Shown in pieces: positions 2,379 through 62,907 of a stretch of 64,000 nt of DNA. Every line of letters begins with the position of its first letter. Within the stretch, counting starts at the first letter, position 1. The stretch covers positions 1 to 64,000 of the forward strand of contig JAUIKE010000023.1 in the NCBI GenBank assembly GCA_030430845.1, in the 5' to 3' direction. The notes under the pieces were generated by a model. That model was not told the origin of the DNA and searched no databases. It saw only the letters and a program-made list of their open reading frames with translations. This DNA is from Bacteroidia bacterium. Its GTDB lineage: Bacteria; Bacteroidota; Bacteroidia; Chitinophagales; Saprospiraceae. Both the position numbers and the translations under genes were made by a program.

Positions 2379-3635
2379 ATGCAATTAGAAAATGGAAAGT
2401 ACCTACTGAGTGGGGGAGTAGACCCTCTCGAGCTTGGAAAAAAGTATCAGCTACCTTTATATATATACGACAGTGCGGTCATGAAACGGCAGTATGATCG
2501 GATGATGAATGCCTTTGATGTGCCTAAGATCAAGGTGAACTATGCTTGTAAAGCCCTGAGCAATATCAACGTCATGAGCCTTTTTAAGGAATTTGGGGCG
2601 GGATTGGATACCGTATCGGTCCAGGAAGTTGAGTTGGGCCTGAAAGCTGGTTTTCATCCAAGGGATATTATCTATACTCCCAACTGTGTCAGCTTGGAAG
2701 AAATTGAAGAAGCCGTAGCTTTAGGCGTACGGATCAACATTGATAACACCTCCATTTTAGAGCAATTCGGTCAGGTACATCCCGATATTCCCGTCTGTAT
2801 CCGGATTAATCCACACATCATGGCAGGAGGGAATACGAAAATATCTGTAGGGCATATCGATTCAAAATTTGGGATTTCTTTCCATCAAATGCCTCTGGTA
2901 CACCGTATTGTGGAAGCTACCGGCCTGAAGGTAGAAGGCCTGCACATGCATACAGGATCTGGAATTTTGGATGCGGATGTGTTTTTAAGCGGAGCTGAAA
3001 TACTTTTAAATATTGCTACTGAGTTTCATGATCTGGACTATCTCGATTTTGGCAGCGGCTTCAAGGTGCCGTATAAAGAAGGAGATGTAGAAACCAATAT
3101 TGAGGAGCTCGGCAAAAAAATCAGTAAGCGTTTTCGGCACTTTTGTAAAGAATACGGGAAGGATCTCACCCTTATTTTTGAACCCGGCAAATTCCTGGTC
3201 AGTGAGGCCGGGTATTTCCTGGCTAAAGTAAATGTGATCAAACAAACCACTTCTATGGTATTCGCCGGAATAGATTCGGGCCTGAATCACCTGATCCGGC
3301 CTATGTTCTACGATGCCTACCATGAGATTTCTAACATTTCTAATCCGGAGGGTAAGAAACGATTTTATACCGTCGTAGGCTACATTTGTGAGACCGACAC
3401 CTTTGGCGTCAATCGTAAGATCGCCGAAATCCATGAGGGTGATGTGCTCTGCCTGCATAATGCGGGAGCCTATTGCTTTACCATGTCTTCTAACTACAAC
3501 TCGCGGTTTCGGCCGGCAGAGGTGCTCGTATATGAAGGAAAAGATTATCTGATCCGAAAGAGAGAAACCATGGAAGACCTACTCAAGAACCAGGTGGAAT
3601 TACCTGTTTTTCAAAAGGTTGAGAGTGCAAGGTGA
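2379..3635 (+). CDS. lysA: Diaminopimelate decarboxylase
   Basis: A PLP-dependent fold-III decarboxylase that converts meso-diaminopimelate to L-lysine in the cytosol, the last step of lysine biosynthesis. N-terminal barrel motifs are visible: YIYDSAVMKRQYDRM, then NYACKALSNINVM, where Lys of ACKA is the PLP-binding lysine (about residue 61). HMHTGSGI is the HxGS motif, and LIFEPGKFLVSEAG is the EPGR-like substrate loop with Lys in place of Arg. NAGAYCFTMSSNYNSRFRPAE near the C-terminus is the classic GAY...N.RPR-like signature. 418 residues, normal length. It stands alone with its own strong hairpin terminator. The EPGK variant is common in Bacteroidota. Confidence 0.93.
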   Translation: MQLENGKYLLSGGVDPLELGKKYQLPLYIYDSAVMKRQYDRMMNAFDVPKIKVNYACKALSNINVMSLFKEFGAGLDTVSVQEVELGLKAGFHPRDIIYTPNCVSLEEIEEAVALGVRINIDNTSILEQFGQVHPDIPVCIRINPHIMAGGNTKISVGHIDSKFGISFHQMPLVHRIVEATGLKVEGLHMHTGSGILDADVFLSGAEILLNIATEFHDLDYLDFGSGFKVPYKEGDVETNIEELGKKISKRFRHFCKEYGKDLTLIFEPGKFLVSEAGYFLAKVNVIKQTTSMVFAGIDSGLNHLIRPMFYDAYHEISNISNPEGKKRFYTVVGYICETDTFGVNRKIAEIHEGDVLCLHNAGAYCFTMSSNYNSRFRPAEVLVYEGKDYLIRKRETMEDLLKNQVELPVFQKVESAR

Positions 3636-49134: not shown

Positions 49135-50301
49135 ATGAATGAAGAACATTTGGCGATACTTAAAAAGGGGGTGAAGGAGTGGAATAAATGGAGAGAAGAA
49201 CAAAAATATCTTCGGCCAAACTTACAAGAAGCTATATTACCTAGTTTTGACTTATCTGATTTTAATTTAAGTTGGTGTAACCTAAATGGAGCTTTACTAA
49301 ATAAAGCTAATTTAAGATACGCTAATTTAACAGGAGCTCTTTTATTTGGCGCACAAATGAATGAGGCCGACTTAACGGACGCTAAGCTTTATTCGGGGGA
49401 CCTCAGAAATGCTTATCTTAATGATGCAATTTTGAGACAAGCTAAATTGAGTGAGGCTGATTTGAGTCATGCAAAACTTAGAAATGCACGGGTTGAAAAT
49501 GCAATTTTGTATGCTGTCAATTTGTATTACTCAAATTTCCAAGATGCAACACTACAAGGATCGAATCTTAGGTTTGCGAATCTTACAAAAACTATTTTAA
49601 GAAATACGAATCTAACAGATTGCGTGCTAGATGAAACTATTATTGGCCTTAATGATTTGAGTAATTGCAAAGGACTTGATACTGTTAAAGTTAAAGGTCC
49701 ATGCGTCATTGATTTTGAAACACTTAGAGCCTCCAAAAATATTCCTGAAGACTTCCTATTCAGAATAGGCTTACCTAGAGACTATTTGAATTATCTTCCG
49801 GCCTTGATCAGTCAAAATCCCATCCAATTATCTCATTCTGTTTTCCTCTCTCACTCTTCAGAAGATAGGGAGTTCGCAGATAAACTCTATAAGTACTTAA
49901 CTTCTAATGGTGTACGGGTTTGGTATGATCAAAGAAAAATTAAACCGGGCGACAAAATTGGGAAGCATGTGGAAAAAGCGATCAACCTATATGATAGGAT
50001 GATCATTGTCTGTTCTGAGAACTCCCTCATGAAAACCCTTTGGGTGAAAAAGGAACTGGAGGAAGCTTACCGAAAGGAGCTAAAGCTGCTGAGAAAACAT
50101 AAAAAGAAAATTGAAACCATCATCCCCATCCGAATAGATGACTATGTGATGGACGAGACCAAAAATGAAGATTTTCTCAGATTGCGTGGGTACCATATCG
50201 GTGATTTTACAGACTGGCAGAATGAGGAGAGCTTCAAAATAAATGTTTTTTTATTAATGGAGGCTTTGAATAAAAATCGAGAGCCGTTTATTGAGCTGTA
50301 G
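49135..50301 (+). CDS. Pentapeptide-repeat protein with C-terminal TIR domain
   Basis: A 388-residue protein. Residues 1-30 form a helical lead (NEEHLAILKKGVKEWNKWRE). About 20 pentapeptide repeats (A(D/N)LxxA type, e.g. ANLRYANLTGALLFGAQ) span ~35-195, building a right-handed beta-helix. Residues ~235-385 form a TIR domain: HSVFLSHSSEDREFADKLY (box 1), GVRVWYDQRKIKPGDKI (box 2) and LWVKKELEEAY, with the Glu expected of NAD-cleaving TIR enzymes. It is probably a sensor/effector whose TIR cleaves NAD+ or makes a signal nucleotide. A defence role is inferred from family and context. Confidence 0.9.
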   Translation: MNEEHLAILKKGVKEWNKWREEQKYLRPNLQEAILPSFDLSDFNLSWCNLNGALLNKANLRYANLTGALLFGAQMNEADLTDAKLYSGDLRNAYLNDAILRQAKLSEADLSHAKLRNARVENAILYAVNLYYSNFQDATLQGSNLRFANLTKTILRNTNLTDCVLDETIIGLNDLSNCKGLDTVKVKGPCVIDFETLRASKNIPEDFLFRIGLPRDYLNYLPALISQNPIQLSHSVFLSHSSEDREFADKLYKYLTSNGVRVWYDQRKIKPGDKIGKHVEKAINLYDRMIIVCSENSLMKTLWVKKELEEAYRKELKLLRKHKKKIETIIPIRIDDYVMDETKNEDFLRLRGYHIGDFTDWQNEESFKINVFLLMEALNKNREPFIEL

Positions 50302-52181: not shown

Positions 52182-52196
52182 CAGCGGAGGAGGAGG
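52182..52196. other. Attachment repeat, left (chromosomal side)
   Basis: CAGCGGAGGAGGAGG, identical to 62893-62907. Here it is followed by non-tRNA sequence, so it is the 3'-terminal tRNA fragment displaced by integration. Confidence 0.85.
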
Positions 52197-52358: not shown

Positions 52359-53642
52359 ATGAAAAAAGAAATGGCTCAAGCTCGTTTTTATCTAAAAGAT
52401 CCTAATCAGGATGGGCAAAGTTTAATCCTTCTAAAATGTACTTATAAAATTCATTGGAATGAGAGTTTAAGGCTCACTTATTCCACGAATTTATATATAG
52501 ATCCTTCATTTTGGAATAAGAAAAAACAACGTGCGAAATCTTCAATATCATTTCCTGAAAATGATTCTCTTAATGAGAGGTTAGATGAGCTGGCATTCAT
52601 TGTAAGAAAAATATACAACCAGTATAGAAATGAAAAAAGGGCCTATGAATTGACTACTTCCAGCTTTAGGGAAGAAATCAATAAAGAATTTTGGGGGCTA
52701 GAACCATTTACAGAAGCTAAAGAGGATTTCTTTACCTGGGTTCCTTCCTGGCTCGAAAAATACAAGCACAGCCGGACTTATAATGAAAACACTCTCCAGA
52801 ATTACAAGCGGGCTTTTAATCTGCTAACTGAGTTTAAAGATGAGCATGGCACATTCGATTTTAAGGATATAAATGTTGATTTCTTCTTTCAGTTCATTGA
52901 CTATGTGCAGGAAAAATACAACTATGCAGATAACACTATTATCAAATACATTGAGCGAATCAGGAGCATTCTAAATGCAGCTACTGAGGATGGAGTAAAT
53001 GTTAATGATAAGTATCGACTTGCAACCAATCAAAGGTTAGGATTGAAGAAAACCAGAGGTGATAAAACCTATTTGACGCCCACCGATATAAAAAAGATCT
53101 ATTCCCACAAATACAGCTCTGAGCGATTGAGAAAAATTGCAGACGTGTTTTGTGCTGCCTGTTACCTGGGACTTGCTCCAGCGGATTGGAAGAAGCTGAA
53201 TAAAGACCACATTCTAAAAAAAGATGGAAAGCACCTATTTGAATATTTGAGAGAGAAAACCAATGAAAGAGGAGTTGTGCCAGCACACCCCATTGTCATG
53301 GAAGTGATTGAAAAATATAATGGATACCCGCCAATTATCAGCGGACAGAAAACCAATGATTATTTGAAAGAGATAGGCCAGGAAGCAGGGTTCAACAATC
53401 CAATAATCAAAAGTATCCGGAGGAAGGAAATAGAAAAGCAGAGGTTGCAAGAGTGGGAAATGTTTACTTGTCATGTAGCTAGAAACAGCCTGAATAGTAA
53501 CGCCCTGGCAGCTAAGATAAAGCGATCAGATGTGAAAAAGTTCATGGCTCATAAGTACAAAGATATGACAGAGAACTATGATAGGCGGGATTTGGTCAGC
53601 ATAGCATTGTCCTATGCAGAACACCCATTTTTCAATGAGTAG
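52359..53642 (+). CDS. int: Tyrosine recombinase / integrase of the element
   Basis: A 427-residue integrase with a Bacteroidota-type arm-binding N-terminus (ARFYLKDPNQDGQSLILLKC), a SAM-like core-binding domain at ~125-220 (NYKRAFNLLTEFKD, FFFQFIDYVQEKYNYADNTI) and a catalytic domain at ~230-420. Seen: the beta-hairpin Lys region EYLREKTNERGVVPAHP, the HxxR box CHVARNSLNS, and MAHKYKDMTENYDRRD with the second His and the nucleophilic Tyr. The place of the first catalytic Arg, normally TGLRxSD, reads YLGLAPADW, so that Arg is missing. The gene lies 163 nt inside the left attachment repeat, as expected. Confidence 0.9.
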   Translation: MKKEMAQARFYLKDPNQDGQSLILLKCTYKIHWNESLRLTYSTNLYIDPSFWNKKKQRAKSSISFPENDSLNERLDELAFIVRKIYNQYRNEKRAYELTTSSFREEINKEFWGLEPFTEAKEDFFTWVPSWLEKYKHSRTYNENTLQNYKRAFNLLTEFKDEHGTFDFKDINVDFFFQFIDYVQEKYNYADNTIIKYIERIRSILNAATEDGVNVNDKYRLATNQRLGLKKTRGDKTYLTPTDIKKIYSHKYSSERLRKIADVFCAACYLGLAPADWKKLNKDHILKKDGKHLFEYLREKTNERGVVPAHPIVMEVIEKYNGYPPIISGQKTNDYLKEIGQEAGFNNPIIKSIRRKEIEKQRLQEWEMFTCHVARNSLNSNALAAKIKRSDVKKFMAHKYKDMTENYDRRDLVSIALSYAEHPFFNE

Positions 53643-53651
53643 GGAGTAAAA

Positions 53652-53698
53652 ACCCCGATGCGGTTTCAATGTCTTGCCGGACTCGACCGCAAAGGGGT
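53652..53698 (+). promoter_or_regulatory. Leader hairpin between integrase and the next gene
   Basis: ACCCC-GA-TGCGGT (53652-53664) pairs with ACCGCA-AA-GGGGT (53686-53698): two helices, 5 and 6 bp, joined by a symmetric 2x2 internal loop. It has no T-run, so it is not a terminator. It lies 28 nt before the likely start at 53727. Confidence 0.5.
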
Positions 53699-53726
53699 AT
53701 TGTTAATAAAAACAATCGTTAAAATT

Positions 53727-55142
53727 ATGAAAACATTCTTGTCATTACCAAAGAATGAGAAGTTTTTCAGCTATTACGCTGGATTAGTACCCACACTCTT
53801 TAAAGTGGGATTCATCGCTCAGGTGATTTCAGCAGCTACCGAAATCACTATTATTTACGCTTTAATTTACAACTCGCTCCAAGATTTCGCACCTGGCCAG
53901 GCCAGGGCTTTATCCATAGTCGGCGCCGTGATCGGTACGGCCCTGTTAGAGGTAGGATTAAGGAAGTTTACCCCCTATTCCATTCGGGCGATATTGTACG
54001 GGAAGTTTTCCGGCCTGGATCTCGTTATGAGCATCTTTATTTTTTTGGCGACTATTGGACTATTGGGTGCATCCGGCTATTTGTCATTTACGAATAGTAA
54101 GGAGATCGTGCGAGCGGTCGCCCCGGCTCCAGATCTCCAGACAGATGACCAGGTCAAAGACGAGTATAACCTCCACCTGGCAAACGTCAATTCACAATAC
54201 AGTTCTGATAGTGCAGCGATCGCGGGAAGATATGCCGACCAGGTGACCGCTAAGGAAAAAAAGTTTGCTGCCTTAATAGCGATCGAGCAGGCAGAGTACA
54301 AAAAATATCTACATCGAGAATGGAGTACGGGGAAGTCCTACCGAAGCAAAAAGGAAGCTGCACAGGTCAATGTCAAACGCCTGGAGGCCGAACAGATGGA
54401 AGCGATTGCAGCCCTGAAATCACAGGAAGCAAACGAACTTAAAACCCTACTCCAGAGTAAAGCCGGACAGCTTGCTGGCATCAAAAGCGAATTGGATGCC
54501 AACAAAAGCGAAATCAAAACGGCTAATAATGAAGCCATAGCAAGTAGTAAGAGAATGATTTCCACCTACGGTGGCGGCTTGGCATGGTTCACGGTCTTTT
54601 GTTTGATGATATTTGTTGTTTCTGTATTGCTTAATGAGGTCCACCGGAAAGGCTCCGAAATCGAGGAGAAGGCACAGCCGACGCAATACGACTTCCTGCC
54701 CGGAATATTTACCGAGTTGGTTTCTATGGTCAACAATAAATATCAATACTACGCACGTAAGGGTATTTATCAGTTAGACGGGAAAACACCCGAAGCACCA
54801 CTTCCTAACACCGGGCATGATCTCTATGACCTGGCAGAGATTGAACAAAGGAAAATCACCTTGACCAGGGAGCAACTGGAAGCGATTCAGGAACAGCAGC
54901 AGAACAGACGCCGCATTGGTTTTAAGATTCCTAACAATAACTCAACGTCCGTTAATAACGCAACCGTTAGTAACTCAAGCAACGGCCAAAGCTCGCACAA
55001 TTGCGACAACTGCGGGAATGAGTATCAAGCTAAGGTGTCTTGGCAGCGGTTTTGTTCTCCAGATTGTAAAACTGAATTTCACGCAAAGCAGCACGGCGGC
55101 CAAAAGTTCAACGCACGTAAGTACCACCAGAAGAAAAAGTAA
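53727..55142 (+). CDS. Membrane protein with coiled coil and C-terminal zinc finger
   Basis: A 471-residue protein. Membrane segments lie at ~20-60 and ~75-130 (FGLDLVMSIFIFLATIGLLG-like), followed by a ~150-residue Ala/Glu/Lys coiled coil (ITAK/EQAEYKKYLH to KSELDANKSEIK) that is probably outside or spans a compartment. A further membrane segment is at ~280-300 (GGLAWFTVFCLMIFVVSVLL), then a cytosolic tail. The tail ends in NCDNCGNEYQAKVSWQRFC and SPDCKTEFH, a CxxC...CxxxC zinc finger of the sort seen in Bacteroidota mobile-element proteins. An ATG at 53658 would add 23 residues, but 53727 gives a better start. Function unknown; it could be superinfection exclusion or packaging-related. Confidence 0.65.
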   Translation: MKTFLSLPKNEKFFSYYAGLVPTLFKVGFIAQVISAATEITIIYALIYNSLQDFAPGQARALSIVGAVIGTALLEVGLRKFTPYSIRAILYGKFSGLDLVMSIFIFLATIGLLGASGYLSFTNSKEIVRAVAPAPDLQTDDQVKDEYNLHLANVNSQYSSDSAAIAGRYADQVTAKEKKFAALIAIEQAEYKKYLHREWSTGKSYRSKKEAAQVNVKRLEAEQMEAIAALKSQEANELKTLLQSKAGQLAGIKSELDANKSEIKTANNEAIASSKRMISTYGGGLAWFTVFCLMIFVVSVLLNEVHRKGSEIEEKAQPTQYDFLPGIFTELVSMVNNKYQYYARKGIYQLDGKTPEAPLPNTGHDLYDLAEIEQRKITLTREQLEAIQEQQQNRRRIGFKIPNNNSTSVNNATVSNSSNGQSSHNCDNCGNEYQAKVSWQRFCSPDCKTEFHAKQHGGQKFNARKYHQKKK

Positions 55143-56194: not shown

Positions 56195-58387
56195 ATGACA
56201 CAATATAAGAATATAAAGGTTAAGAAACAATCCTATCTAGATATTGCATTAGCTTACCACAAATCAGGACTAAAAGTAATACCCGTTCACGAAACCAAAA
56301 TACCCGCCTGCAAATGGAAGCAGTATCAAAAATCGCAGAGCGAAAATGATATAAAGGAAATTTTCAATAAGCCCTTTTGGGGTATTGCTATTTTGACTGG
56401 TAAGTGTGTTGAAGCTCTAGACATTGATCAGAAAAACTGGAGACATCAAACTGACTTGTTAGTCGATCTGATGAAGCATAGCCATGTGAAATATAAGAAT
56501 AATTGCCCTTTTTCTTTGCCAGTAATACAATCGACAAAAAGCGGAGGTTATCATCTTATTTACAGATGTGACAAAATCGAGAGCAATAAAAAACTTGCAT
56601 TGAATGAAGAGGGGGAAGTCATCTTAGAAACCAGGGGCGCAGGCGGTTACATTGTCGCGCATCCTTCACCCGGCTATGAAATGCAAGATGGATCTTTTTT
56701 AGATATTCCCGCTATCAAGGTTGAGCAGCGGAAAATGATGTTTGAAGCGGCAATGGATTTTGATGAATCTAAAGAATTGAAAGTTGAAAAAGTCGCCGCT
56801 AAGTTTAAAGGGAAATCTGACATAACGCCTCCATCGGATGATTACAATAACACACATTCCGTTTTAGACATATTACAGACTCATGGATGGGAAATAATAA
56901 AAGAACAAGGTCAAAGAATCTATTTACGCAGACCTGGAAGTGATGCACCTTATTCAGGTAATTACCATTCAGGCAAGAAAGTATTTATCTGCTTTTCTTC
57001 ATCAACTCGTTTTCAACCCGGCAAAGGATACGACGCCTTTGGTGTTTACGCTGTACTGGAGCATAATGGTGATTTCTCGCAAGCGGGGAAAACTCTATAC
57101 CATCAAGGATTTGGAGATAGACATGAAAACACCAAAGCACCGCAGAAGGAAAAAGAGGTTGACCAGGTCGACCAGGTGGAAGAAGAAAACAGCGAAAATA
57201 AAAAAAGTAGTTATGTAGAGGAGATAGAAGATGCACTTAAAAACCGATATGATTTTAGAGTTAACGCAATTAAAGGGATGCCAGAGTACAAACGGAAATC
57301 TGAAGAAAACTGGCAATCAATCAATGATTATGTACTAAACTCACTTGTCAGAGATCTTCAATCGAACTATATCAAAAGGGCATCTAAAGACATGATCAGC
57401 ACACTACTGAATAGTTCTTTTGCTCCACAAGTAGATCCTATTGTTGAATATTTCAAAAAGCTATCCTGGGATCAAAAAGACCACATCGAGACGCTATGCA
57501 GAACTGTTGACCCAGTCGGGGAAGATGGGGAATCAAGCCGGGAAATGTTCAAAAAGTACCTAACTAAATGGTTAGTCGCCGCTATTGCTAATGTAATTGA
57601 CAAGAAAGTATGTAGAAATCATCAATGTTTTATTTTAGCTGGCCCACAAGGAGCCGGGAAAAGTACCTGGATTAAAAAGCTATGCCCACCAGAGCTGGAG
57701 CCTTATTATATTGAGCAAGGATTAGACCCAGATAACAAAGACAGTCAGCTGGCCACTACTACTAATTTCATTTTCAATTTAGATGACTACTTCGCAGCAA
57801 CTACAAGCAAAAAAATAAATGAGTTCAAAGGCCTCATTACAAAAAACGAAGTAAAGGTTCGTATGCCTTACGGCCGCTACCCAGAAGAGCGGGCAAAGAT
57901 ATGTTCTTTTGTAGCATCTAGCAATGAAGCACAATTTCTTCATGATCCAACCGGAAACAGAAGGTTTGTTCCTTTTGAAGTATCAGACATTCACCTGAAT
58001 AAGTTGAATGATATCAACATTGGCCAGGTATGGGCTCAAGCGTACCACCTTTATAATTCAGGTTTTCAATACTGGCTCAACAAAGAAGATCAAGATGAAC
58101 TAAATAAACATAATTCACAGTTCGAGGTCAGATCTGCTGAGTACGAGTATTTAGATTATTACTTCAAAGTTCCAGAAGATGGAGACGAGGTTGAGTATTT
58201 CAATACTAGCAGGTTAACCAACAAGATCCAAGAATTTACGAGCATAAAATTATCAGTCAAAAAAGTAGGGGAAGCAGCGAGGAAATTAGGATTTGAAAGA
58301 AAATCCTATCGATCCGGTATAAAAGGAGAAAAACCTAAAAAGGGATACGCAGTAACAAGGGTATTCCATGGATCAGAAGAAAACTGA
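56195..58387 (+). CDS. PrimPol / VapE-type replication protein
   Basis: A 730-residue bifunctional replication protein. The N-terminal archaeo-eukaryotic-type primase-polymerase domain (~10-190) has PACKWKQYQ, ILTGKCVEALDIDQKN (metal Asp-x-Asp) and STKSGGYHLIYRC (S.H motif). A middle linker with a coiled/charged stretch follows (~310-345). A C-terminal VapE/D5-like superfamily 3 helicase (~390-660) has ILAGPQGAGKSTWIKKL (Walker A, ~483-491), FIFNLDDYFAATT (Walker B, ~525), FVASSNEAQFLHDPTGNRRF (sensor/Arg finger region). It likely melts and primes the adjoining iteron origin. VapE-like ATPases are frequent in phage satellites and pathogenicity islands. Confidence 0.9.
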   Translation: MTQYKNIKVKKQSYLDIALAYHKSGLKVIPVHETKIPACKWKQYQKSQSENDIKEIFNKPFWGIAILTGKCVEALDIDQKNWRHQTDLLVDLMKHSHVKYKNNCPFSLPVIQSTKSGGYHLIYRCDKIESNKKLALNEEGEVILETRGAGGYIVAHPSPGYEMQDGSFLDIPAIKVEQRKMMFEAAMDFDESKELKVEKVAAKFKGKSDITPPSDDYNNTHSVLDILQTHGWEIIKEQGQRIYLRRPGSDAPYSGNYHSGKKVFICFSSSTRFQPGKGYDAFGVYAVLEHNGDFSQAGKTLYHQGFGDRHENTKAPQKEKEVDQVDQVEEENSENKKSSYVEEIEDALKNRYDFRVNAIKGMPEYKRKSEENWQSINDYVLNSLVRDLQSNYIKRASKDMISTLLNSSFAPQVDPIVEYFKKLSWDQKDHIETLCRTVDPVGEDGESSREMFKKYLTKWLVAAIANVIDKKVCRNHQCFILAGPQGAGKSTWIKKLCPPELEPYYIEQGLDPDNKDSQLATTTNFIFNLDDYFAATTSKKINEFKGLITKNEVKVRMPYGRYPEERAKICSFVASSNEAQFLHDPTGNRRFVPFEVSDIHLNKLNDINIGQVWAQAYHLYNSGFQYWLNKEDQDELNKHNSQFEVRSAEYEYLDYYFKVPEDGDEVEYFNTSRLTNKIQEFTSIKLSVKKVGEAARKLGFERKSYRSGIKGEKPKKGYAVTRVFHGSEEN

Positions 58388-58388
58388 A

Positions 58389-58646
58389 TTTACTAAAAAC
58401 AAGTGTCTACACTGTCTACATATAGTTAAAAATACTGGCATTCAGATAGTTATATGTAGACAGATAGATCAAAAACAAGTGTCTACAAAGTGTCTACAAG
58501 TGTCTACAAAACCTTAGCGGCGACTAAATGTAGACACGTAGACAGAATGTAGACACTTTAAATCAAGGGTTCAAGCTACGCATAATAAATTGAGCAACAG
58601 CCTTTTATGTTAAATGTAGACAGTGTAGACACTTGTTTTTAGTAAA
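58389..58646. repeat. Iteron array in a 33-bp inverted repeat, probable replication origin
   Basis: Bases 58389-58421 and 58614-58646 form a perfect 33-bp inverted repeat. Each arm holds two octamers. Perfect TGTCTACA copies start at 58404, 58413, 58480, 58491 and 58501; perfect TGTAGACA (its complement) copies start at 58455, 58529, 58548, 58615 and 58624; CGTAGACA at 58537 is a near copy. The 17-mer beginning AAAAACAAGTGTC occurs twice and once inverted. The array begins just behind the stop codon of the replication protein, the usual position of an iteron origin. No gene is present. Confidence 0.85.
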
Positions 58647-58862
58647 CTAGAGAAAAACATGGTAATCACTAAAAACGCATTCCTAGAAATTAATATGTAA
58701 GCAGCTTTTTATCAAAGACATATTTTCAAAAGTCGTGATCTATTTTTTAGATCGCGACGATTCACCCCGGCTGCGCCTGTCTAGGATTTTAAGTTAAAGG
58801 GGTTCAAAACAAGGAAATATGCAGATAGCAACTAATTATTTAACCCAATCAATACTTGATCT
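58647..58862. promoter_or_regulatory. Leader with hairpin between origin and the late gene cluster
   Basis: A 10-bp hairpin (58732-58741 with 58749-58758, one wobble) and an ACCCC ... GGGGT pair lie between the origin and the next genes. No coding sequence except the 15-codon frame at 58819. Confidence 0.45.
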
Positions 58863-60710: not shown

Positions 60711-61931
60711 ATGAATAATCAAATTTCAAGAATCTTGCATGAGCCATTTTTCATGGAAGAAGATTATGCAAGGGCATCATTGTTGCCCTGGGTTATGTCC
60801 ATCGTCAAGGGGGAACCGATGAAGGAACAATCATCTAATCAGCAGACGGTCTATGCATACAATGATAGATCCCTTTTCAGGAAAAAAACTAATAACCTGG
60901 AAAAGGCTCCAACTGGAGCAATAGCCGTTTACAACATTGTCGGGATAATGATGAAGTACGACAGCATTTTTACACCCGGCATGATGAGCCTGGAGACTGC
61001 TATGTTGGAAGCTGACCAACTGGAGAACATATCAGCCCACATCATTGTGATCGACAGCGGCGGCGGTGAAGCTGCCTTCATGCACTCATTTGCAAATACT
61101 ATTCGTAATGAGATCAAAAAGCCAGTGATTGCCTTTATTAACGGTAGGTGTGCGAGTGCTGCTTACTACCTGGCATCTGCTTGCGATAAGATCTACTCGA
61201 ATGAAAAAACCGACCAGGTTGGTAGTATTGGAGTATTGGTTACGGCGGTTGATTTCAAAGGCTTTTATGAAAAGCAAGGTGTCAAGCTACATGAAATCTA
61301 TGCTACACAATCGACAAAAAAGAATGAGCTATTCAATGAAGCCTACAAAGGCAATTATAAGCCGCTCCAAAAAGAATTGCTTAATCCTTTTGCGGTCCAA
61401 TTCATTGAATCCGTTCAAAAGTTCCGGCCAGGCCTGCGCGATGAAGATGCATTCAAAGGGAAGATTTACACGGCAGCAGAGGCCGAAAAAATCGGAATGA
61501 TAGACGGTGTCAATTCTTTCAAAATGTGCGCTAAGGAGGCCCGAATGATGAGTGAGGAACCACGTTTTAAGAATGTGGTACGTCAATCAATCAGAACTGC
61601 ACAACAAACTTTTTCACCAGGTCAGATAACTGGAGCAACATCTGCTCGGCCTACCTATCAGATCAAAACGCCCCCAGGGGATGACGCATCGATCCGCGCT
61701 ATGAAATCAGAAATTTCTGACTTAAAAAATCGTCTTGTCAGACTGGAGGCAAAAAACGAGGTGATGAAAACTAAGGTACTCGAATACCAAGAAGGCGTGC
61801 AAAAAATACAAACGGAGTGGCAGCGTATGAAGAGCGCACCAGGTGAAGCTGTCACCAGGGCATTTACACCGCAGGACGCCGGAATGATCAATATAAAAAT
61901 CGATGAGCCACGTAAAGATGGGCTTATCTAA
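60711..61931 (+). CDS. S49-family peptidase with scaffold-like coiled-coil tail
   Basis: A 406-residue protein of the phage prohead-protease type of S49 (SppA/protein C-like). Residues ~65-270 form the protease: AVYNIVGIMMKY, IIVIDSGGGEAAFMHSFANT (oxyanion region), INGRCASAAYYLASACDKIY with nucleophile Ser at ~149, DQVGSIGVLVTAVDFKG, and the Lys general base within YATQSTKKNELF (~203). No signal peptide, unlike SppA. Residues ~325-375 form a coiled coil (ISDLKNRLVRLEAKNEVMK), as in protease-scaffold fusions (lambda C/Nu3). In phages the capsid gene follows; here none does. Confidence 0.85.
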   Translation: MNNQISRILHEPFFMEEDYARASLLPWVMSIVKGEPMKEQSSNQQTVYAYNDRSLFRKKTNNLEKAPTGAIAVYNIVGIMMKYDSIFTPGMMSLETAMLEADQLENISAHIIVIDSGGGEAAFMHSFANTIRNEIKKPVIAFINGRCASAAYYLASACDKIYSNEKTDQVGSIGVLVTAVDFKGFYEKQGVKLHEIYATQSTKKNELFNEAYKGNYKPLQKELLNPFAVQFIESVQKFRPGLRDEDAFKGKIYTAAEAEKIGMIDGVNSFKMCAKEARMMSEEPRFKNVVRQSIRTAQQTFSPGQITGATSARPTYQIKTPPGDDASIRAMKSEISDLKNRLVRLEAKNEVMKTKVLEYQEGVQKIQTEWQRMKSAPGEAVTRAFTPQDAGMINIKIDEPRKDGLI

Positions 61932-62236: not shown

Positions 62237-62536
62237 ATGAAAGATAAAAAGTCTCCAAAAATAGTATATGAGGTATATGTGCCAGACTTAAAGGAGTTGG
62301 TTAAAAATGCTGTCTTGGAAGCATTGGAAGAGAGCCAGAAAGAAAATGATCCTTTCAGCAAATATCCTGAATATTGTACTACTAGCCAGGCTGTTAAGAT
62401 CCTCAATTGTTCAAAATCATACTTTTACAAATTGACGAAATCTAAAGCAATTGAGAAGGTTTACCTGCCTGGTTCCAAGTATCCTAGATATTCAAAAAGA
62501 GAGTTGATTGAAAAAATTGAAGAGCTTAGATGGTGA
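62237..62536 (+). CDS. Excisionase-like helix-turn-helix DNA-binding protein
   Basis: A 99-residue protein. The C-terminal half has a MerR/excisionase-type winged HTH (HTH_17): YCTTSQAVKILNCSKSYFYK, then LPGSKYPRYSKRELIEKIEE. The N-terminal part (residues 1-40) is acidic and helical. Such proteins act as recombination directionality factors or AlpA-like activators in mobile elements. Its place at the right end, opposite the integrase at the left end, suits excision or control of it. Confidence 0.8.
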   Translation: MKDKKSPKIVYEVYVPDLKELVKNAVLEALEESQKENDPFSKYPEYCTTSQAVKILNCSKSYFYKLTKSKAIEKVYLPGSKYPRYSKRELIEKIEELRW

Positions 62537-62892: not shown

Positions 62893-62907
62893 CAGCGGAG
62901 GAGGAGG
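62893..62907. other. Attachment repeat, right (inside tRNA-Ser)
   Basis: CAGCGGAGGAGGAGG, identical to 52182-52196. It covers the last 12 bases of the tRNA acceptor/T-arm end plus three bases beyond. Confidence 0.85.

Follow-up and report, generated by a model that had tools for sequence, protein, structure and literature searches.

The window analysed here (the whole 64-kb stretch of DNA) carries a 10.7-kb element delimited by two copies of the 15-bp sequence CAGCGGAGGAGGAGG, one of which lies at the 3′ end of a tRNA-Ser gene (Table 1). The element comprises a tyrosine integrase gene, a gene for a coiled-coil protein, a PrimPol-VapE gene followed by an array of short repeats (iterons), three unknown genes, a gene for an S49 head-protease homologue and an excisionase-like gene. 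Pfam and PHROG profile searches gave no family match for three genes of the element. The S49 peptidase (60711-61931) matches the head-maturation protease family PHROG 53 (1e-45) and is the sole phage-related gene of the packaging or interference type found in the element; its occurrence in an element where no capsid gene was found is a hint of a satellite. The coiled-coil protein (53658-55142), which has an HNH-like/zinc-finger end, is a signature gene common to five of seven related elements (33-46% identity), and in some of them it lies directly behind the putative origin. Just outside the element, a pentapeptide-repeat and TIR-like protein (49135-50301) shows weak matches to TIR anti-phage families.

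The PrimPol-VapE gene encodes a single protein of 730 aa joining an AEP primase (PF09250) and an SF3 helicase (PF05272). For residues 301-730, AlphaFold2 gives a confident model (pLDDT 91.6) that ends in a C-terminal winged helix. Its best fold match is PriRep1 (7pds, entitled ‘The structure of PriRep1 with dsDNA’), with a Z score of 25.9, 374 residues aligned and an rmsd of 5.1; the match covers model residues 35-429, nearly the whole model length. The next-best fold, NrS-1, is far below (Z 15.3). A Pfam scan of ten proteins of the element or its neighbourhood gave zero matches to Rep_3-type double winged-helix initiators.

Directly behind this gene, with the first octamer 16 bp past the stop codon (58385-58387), lies the array. 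The window contains exactly ten perfect octamers TGTCTACA/TGTAGACA, five per strand, all within 58404-58631 and none outside, for an expectation of 0.89 (sd 0.90) and a maximum of 5 among 100 shuffles; one near copy, CGTAGACA, completes the set. The array is bounded by two 33-bp arms, 192 bp apart, which are exact reverse complements and form the longest perfect inverted repeat of the window (within 300 bp), the longest inverted repeats in 20 first-order Markov sequences of equal length being 11-15 bp. Counted from the left edge, sites stand at offsets 0, 9, 51, 76, 87 and 97, followed rightward by 125, 133, 144, 211 and 220; counted from the right edge, they stand at 0, 9, none, 76, 87 and 95. 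The right half therefore mirrors the left half, minus slot 3, and the symmetric arms are the outer site pairs of two mirror modules. The count of octamers, the perfection of the arms and the position at the stop codon had all been reported in a first-pass annotation and hold exactly, and the symmetry it described runs deeper than noted, as the offsets match from both edges. The 20-bp centre between the two triples is 55% AT; the stretches rich in AT (76 and 68%) are found within the modules instead. A hairpin-like sequence, AGTCGTGATCTATTTTTTAGATCGCGACG, is found behind the array at 58730-58762.

Table 1. Features of the element and of its iteron array, in window coordinates unless residues (aa) are given.
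Feature	Position	Strand	Remarks
attL-like copy of CAGCGGAGGAGGAGG	52182-52196	.	
Tyrosine integrase of the element	52359-53642	+	Pfam PF13102 9e-15, PHROG 1 1e-19
PrimPol-VapE initiator gene	56195-58387	+	730 aa; Pfam PF09250 3e-16, PF05272 6e-46
AEP primase-polymerase domain of PrimPol-VapE	aa 18-160		
SF3/VapE helicase domain of PrimPol-VapE	aa 421-644		
C-terminal winged-helix domain (about aa 664-722), predicted iteron reader	58184-58360	+	model secondary structure; tracks iteron similarity
Wing of the winged helix (aa 701-722)	58295-58360		
Left inverted-repeat arm	58389-58421	+	33 bp, perfect
Left six-site module (> > < > > >)	58404-58508	+	sites 58404, 58413, 58455(-), 58480, 58491, 58501
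Left-module gap, from site pair to inverted single site	58421-58454	.	76% AT; candidate melting region
Right mirror-image module, 5/6 slots	58529-58631	-	sites 58624, 58615, (slot 3 absent), 58548, 58537 (near copy CGTAGACA, 58537-58544), 58529
Gap inside right module	58556-58614	.	68% AT; candidate melting region
Right inverted-repeat arm	58614-58646	-	33 bp, perfect
Excisionase-like HTH protein	62237-62536	+	PHROG 668 8e-10; TIGR01764 1e-4, below its cut-off
attR-like copy of CAGCGGAGGAGGAGG	62893-62907	.	overlaps tRNA-Ser 3′ end

Spacing and words of the arrays in related elements

The same genome carries, on contig C38, a second vapE gene that is directly followed by nine perfect copies of the window's octamer, with site offsets of 0, 9, 51, 76, 87 and 95, then 114, 133, 200 and 209. 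When the two arrays are aligned, the octamers are kept and the spacers have mostly diverged. The two VapE proteins are 75% identical over the C-terminal 407 aa only, the primase half on C38 being of another kind and unmatched; the integrases share 21% identity, and the next best shared protein is the coiled-coil protein (33-45%). Judged by their sequences, the two VapE proteins represent a natural domain swap, and since the sister element shares the octamer and only the C-terminal half of VapE, the word appears tied to that half. The coiled-coil protein was also considered as a reader of the word and rejected, since one related element (G001) shares 46% identity in this protein yet has another word, while C38 has the same word at only 33-45%.

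Absence of the array from otherwise conserved relatives, an outcome that the first-pass annotation had set against an origin, was not observed among the closest ones: an array lies behind vapE for all eight of the most similar proteins examined. In whole genomes of relatives the words differ, being, among others, TGGTGACA in G002 and G237, TGGCTTAG in G019, TGATTACT in G052 and G001, GGTTACTAC in G053 and TTGTGCA in G056, where the array is reduced to a single module of six sites. What recurs is the placement of sites relative to the first one: forward at 0, forward at 8-10, inverted at 50-53, and forward at 74-78, 85-89 and 94-98. A template of these six slots, learned on few elements and accepting any 7-letter word with one mismatch, was applied to 74 held-out loci, some of them related to one another; at least five of the six slots were filled in 11 and at least four in 20. 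Among 2,063 controls (1,480 shuffled and 583 real windows), none reached five slots and ∼0.6% had four. Distances between sites, pooled from 32 elements and computed template-free, cluster at 8-10, 75-79 and 86-88 for sites sharing a strand and at 52-53 for sites on opposite strands; these peaks exceed the 95% limit set by the highest peak of random data. On this comparison, the conserved trait is the placement of sites and not the complementarity of the arms.

Behind many of the more-distant VapE genes an array was not detectable. Clusters of iterons are likewise present downstream of vapE on phages and on a mobilizable element that carries a relaxase. Five slots in either direction are reached by only three of the loci taken from annotated collections of phages, satellites and plasmids, namely the Streptococcus satellite Javan293 (five of six slots behind its VapE gene), Staphylococcus phage QT1 and Enterococcus phage phiFL4A; with only three such loci, the reach of the spacing code beyond Bacteroidota is suggestive only. 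Protein searches found no relative in the genome-contig collection and one among viral contigs, without an array of the window's word.

Covariation of the iteron word with the initiator

Covariation of the octamer with the initiator, a check proposed with the first-pass annotation, was found: the word follows the VapE winged helix and not the helicase core. In Mantel tests, which remove shared ancestry only in part, on about 30 elements, elements with more similar winged helices have more similar iteron words (r 0.37, p 0.0005), and the correlation is unchanged (0.37) with the helicase core held constant. The helicase core itself correlates with the word at r 0.11 (p 0.08) and loses even this when the winged helix is held constant. 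The word/winged-helix correlation falls from 0.27 to 0.16 among the most distant pairs.

Over 185 overlapping 22-residue VapE windows, the best correlations (r 0.50-0.53) are reached by those starting at residues 701-705, in other words at the wing past the recognition helix. Because this segment was first chosen exploratorily, a family-wise permutation test over all windows was used, giving p 0.003 for the wing window (r 0.53). The recognition-helix residues do not track the word (r 0.05); the wing alone does. By these correlations, it is very probably the C-terminal winged helix of VapE that reads the octamers.

Comparison with known origins and proposed mechanism

The position of the array recalls several characterized systems. 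In staphylococcal pathogenicity islands (SaPIs), the C-terminal domain of Rep recognises an iteron origin directly downstream of the rep gene, and in SCCmec the helicase Cch2 has a C-terminal domain that, when isolated, binds the iterons (PMC7581432). PICI origins consist of an AT-rich region flanked by two iteron sets, and pri-rep-ori segments, from SaPIs as well as from a PICI, sustain plasmid replication (PMC6092414). In the Vibrio cholerae satellite PLE, the DNA-binding domain of the RepA initiator and the iterons covary as a swappable unit, and the origin words are attacked by a phage nuclease (PMC8263062). Given this background, the array of the window belongs with a known kind of origin.

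Closest are SaPI5 PriRep1, SaPIbov1 Rep and the E. coli PICIs, which likewise combine an AEP primase with an SF3 helicase, fused or adjacent, and have an iteron origin with two iteron sets directly after the helicase gene; the near full-length fold match to PriRep1 is a further likeness. The window differs in its iteron words, in its probable Bacteroidota host, to which the named relatives point, and in its mirror modules, whose triples face each other over 20 bp of DNA that are not AT-rich. As in whole PICIs, the element has an integrase, a specific attachment site and a comparable size (10.7 kb versus roughly 10-15 kb); neither a master repressor nor a small terminase was identified in its 10.7 kb. 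The element is not filed as a PICI, a class that also implies induction and packaging by a helper phage. The SCCmec Cch2 origin shares an SF3/D5-type helicase with iterons downstream of its operon, but has three AAGTG iterons only and, in place of an AEP primase, a separate CCPol-MP polymerase complex. PLE relies on a RepA_N initiator instead of an SF3 helicase and on three ∼30-bp semi-palindromic iterons. Iteron plasmids of the RepE/TrfA/Pi type also have repeated initiator sites beside the initiator gene, but their initiators are double winged-helix Rep proteins without a helicase, while the initiator here is itself the helicase. In the literature searched, an incomplete sample, neither a fixed spacing of six slots whose words can be exchanged nor such an origin type in Bacteroidota was found described; fixed spacing with changeable words, doubled as mirror halves, appears undescribed.

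The array is very probably the replication origin of the tRNA-Ser-integrated element, in agreement with the initiator-bound origin beside the replication gene proposed in the first-pass annotation; that proposal is supported by the covariation of the word with the VapE winged helix and by the arrays behind vapE in relatives. It is also highly likely that the winged helix of VapE binds the octamers. Taking together the array, its modules, the conserved spacing with changed words, the winged-helix covariation and the PriRep1 fold match, we infer the following course. VapE, in which a self-loading SF3 helicase is joined to a primase-polymerase, would bind the octamers through the C-terminal winged helices of its subunits, on two mirror modules that each offer up to six fixed-spacing slots (a pair, an inverted single site and a triple). 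The assembly would melt the neighbouring AT-rich gap, 58421-58454 or 58556-58614, and one helicase ring would be loaded per module, the up to six sites matching the six subunits of an SF3 ring; the six slots, like the array of only six sites in G056, suggest one hexamer per module. From two facing modules, two rings would move apart and replicate the excised element bidirectionally, synthesis being started by the fused primase-polymerase. Against an origin stand the many more-distant VapE genes that have no detectable array behind them, the lack of slot 3 in the right module and the location of the AT-rich DNA, which is not seen between the modules, unlike the described PICI layout.

The array could instead be an operator, bound by VapE or a small HTH protein and controlling transcription of the following genes. 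Clusters of direct and inverted sites can serve as operators, many initiators autoregulate, and promoter-like matches are present within the array and ahead of the gene that follows it. These matches occur at chance number, however, and the array lies behind vapE, not before it. The gene that follows also varies (an unknown 232-aa protein here, the coiled-coil protein on C38, a primase-like protein in G056, a toprim protein in Prevotella), and an operator does not need equal spacing of six sites throughout a phylum, which makes this explanation highly improbable. Slightly less probable still is a packaging or partition site: the head-protease homologue makes a satellite life possible, but the sites covary with VapE and a similar cluster lies behind vapE on the mobilizable element with a relaxase. 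As for recombination or excision, the element does encode a tyrosine integrase and a xis-like protein, and arm-type sites can be repeated; it is nonetheless very unlikely that the array serves them, as the att-like repeats lie at the ends of the element, 6.2 and 4.3 kb off, C38 keeps the octamer with an integrase only 21% identical, and the clusters behind vapE extend to phages and the mobilizable element. A role of the arms themselves as a cruciform or hairpin recognised by shape is just as unlikely, and the large cruciform envisaged in the first-pass annotation was rejected, for although the arms are perfect and the 15 bp beyond the octamers (58389-58403 and 58632-58646) are complementary too, the sister element lacks complementarity in these outer 15 bp, the perfect arms shrink to 22 bp there and to 13-20 bp in other relatives, the arms are mainly paired sites and they stand 192 bp apart.

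Returning to the replication origin, a wider reading is plausible rather than probable. VapE/PriRep origins may obey a spacing code (pair, inverted single site, triple) that outlives complete replacement of the word, the word being re-coded mainly via the wing, so that replicon identity would change without a change in architecture; the six slots would dock one hexamer, two modules would stand head to head here, and the code would span Bacteroidota elements to phages and satellites of Bacillota. Many satellites, phages and integrative elements are replicated with self-loading SF3 initiators, and a spacing shared by unrelated words offers a template for hexamer placement, which in G056 is down to six sites. 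From the link between word and wing follows a prediction of the residues that determine origin identity and, hence, the compatibility of co-resident elements. By analogy, one may speculate that the turnover of words here shares a cause with that in Vibrio satellites, whose origin words are targets of a phage nuclease.

Occurrence of the octamer elsewhere

A DNA-only search led mostly to unrelated places (many dispersed copies in one Alloprevotella genome, cyanobacterial loci and GC-rich viral contigs), and the VapE type of the window was in none of them. Because octamer arrays occur without this VapE in other phyla, the octamer alone is not diagnostic of the system. Arrays of the same octamer were found beside DUF5906 helicase genes on one Bacteroidetes and one cyanobacterial contig; on the former, from a MAG (L134:834-2395), the gene stops 14 bp before an eight-copy TGTCTACA array and encodes a different SF3 helicase, associated with the same word.

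In Alloprevotella sp. OH1205_COT-284 (L124-L147), a pair of TGTCTACA copies 9 bp apart is followed by an inverted copy ∼56 bp on and often by another at about +172. This pattern is repeated at some 17 places of one genome, VapE being absent nearby, and looks like a dispersed repeat or a regulon. On GC-rich viral contigs (L149-L153), TGTCTACA/TGTAGACA arrays are flanked on both sides by TGACCTGC-like motifs, and the pieces examined showed no VapE; another initiator possibly uses the same word there. Finally, Lactobacillus phage PLE2 (Bacillota; L161) has seven GTGTCTA/TAGACAC copies behind a helicase gene, after position 3086, in a word nearly equal to that of the window and at a different spacing.
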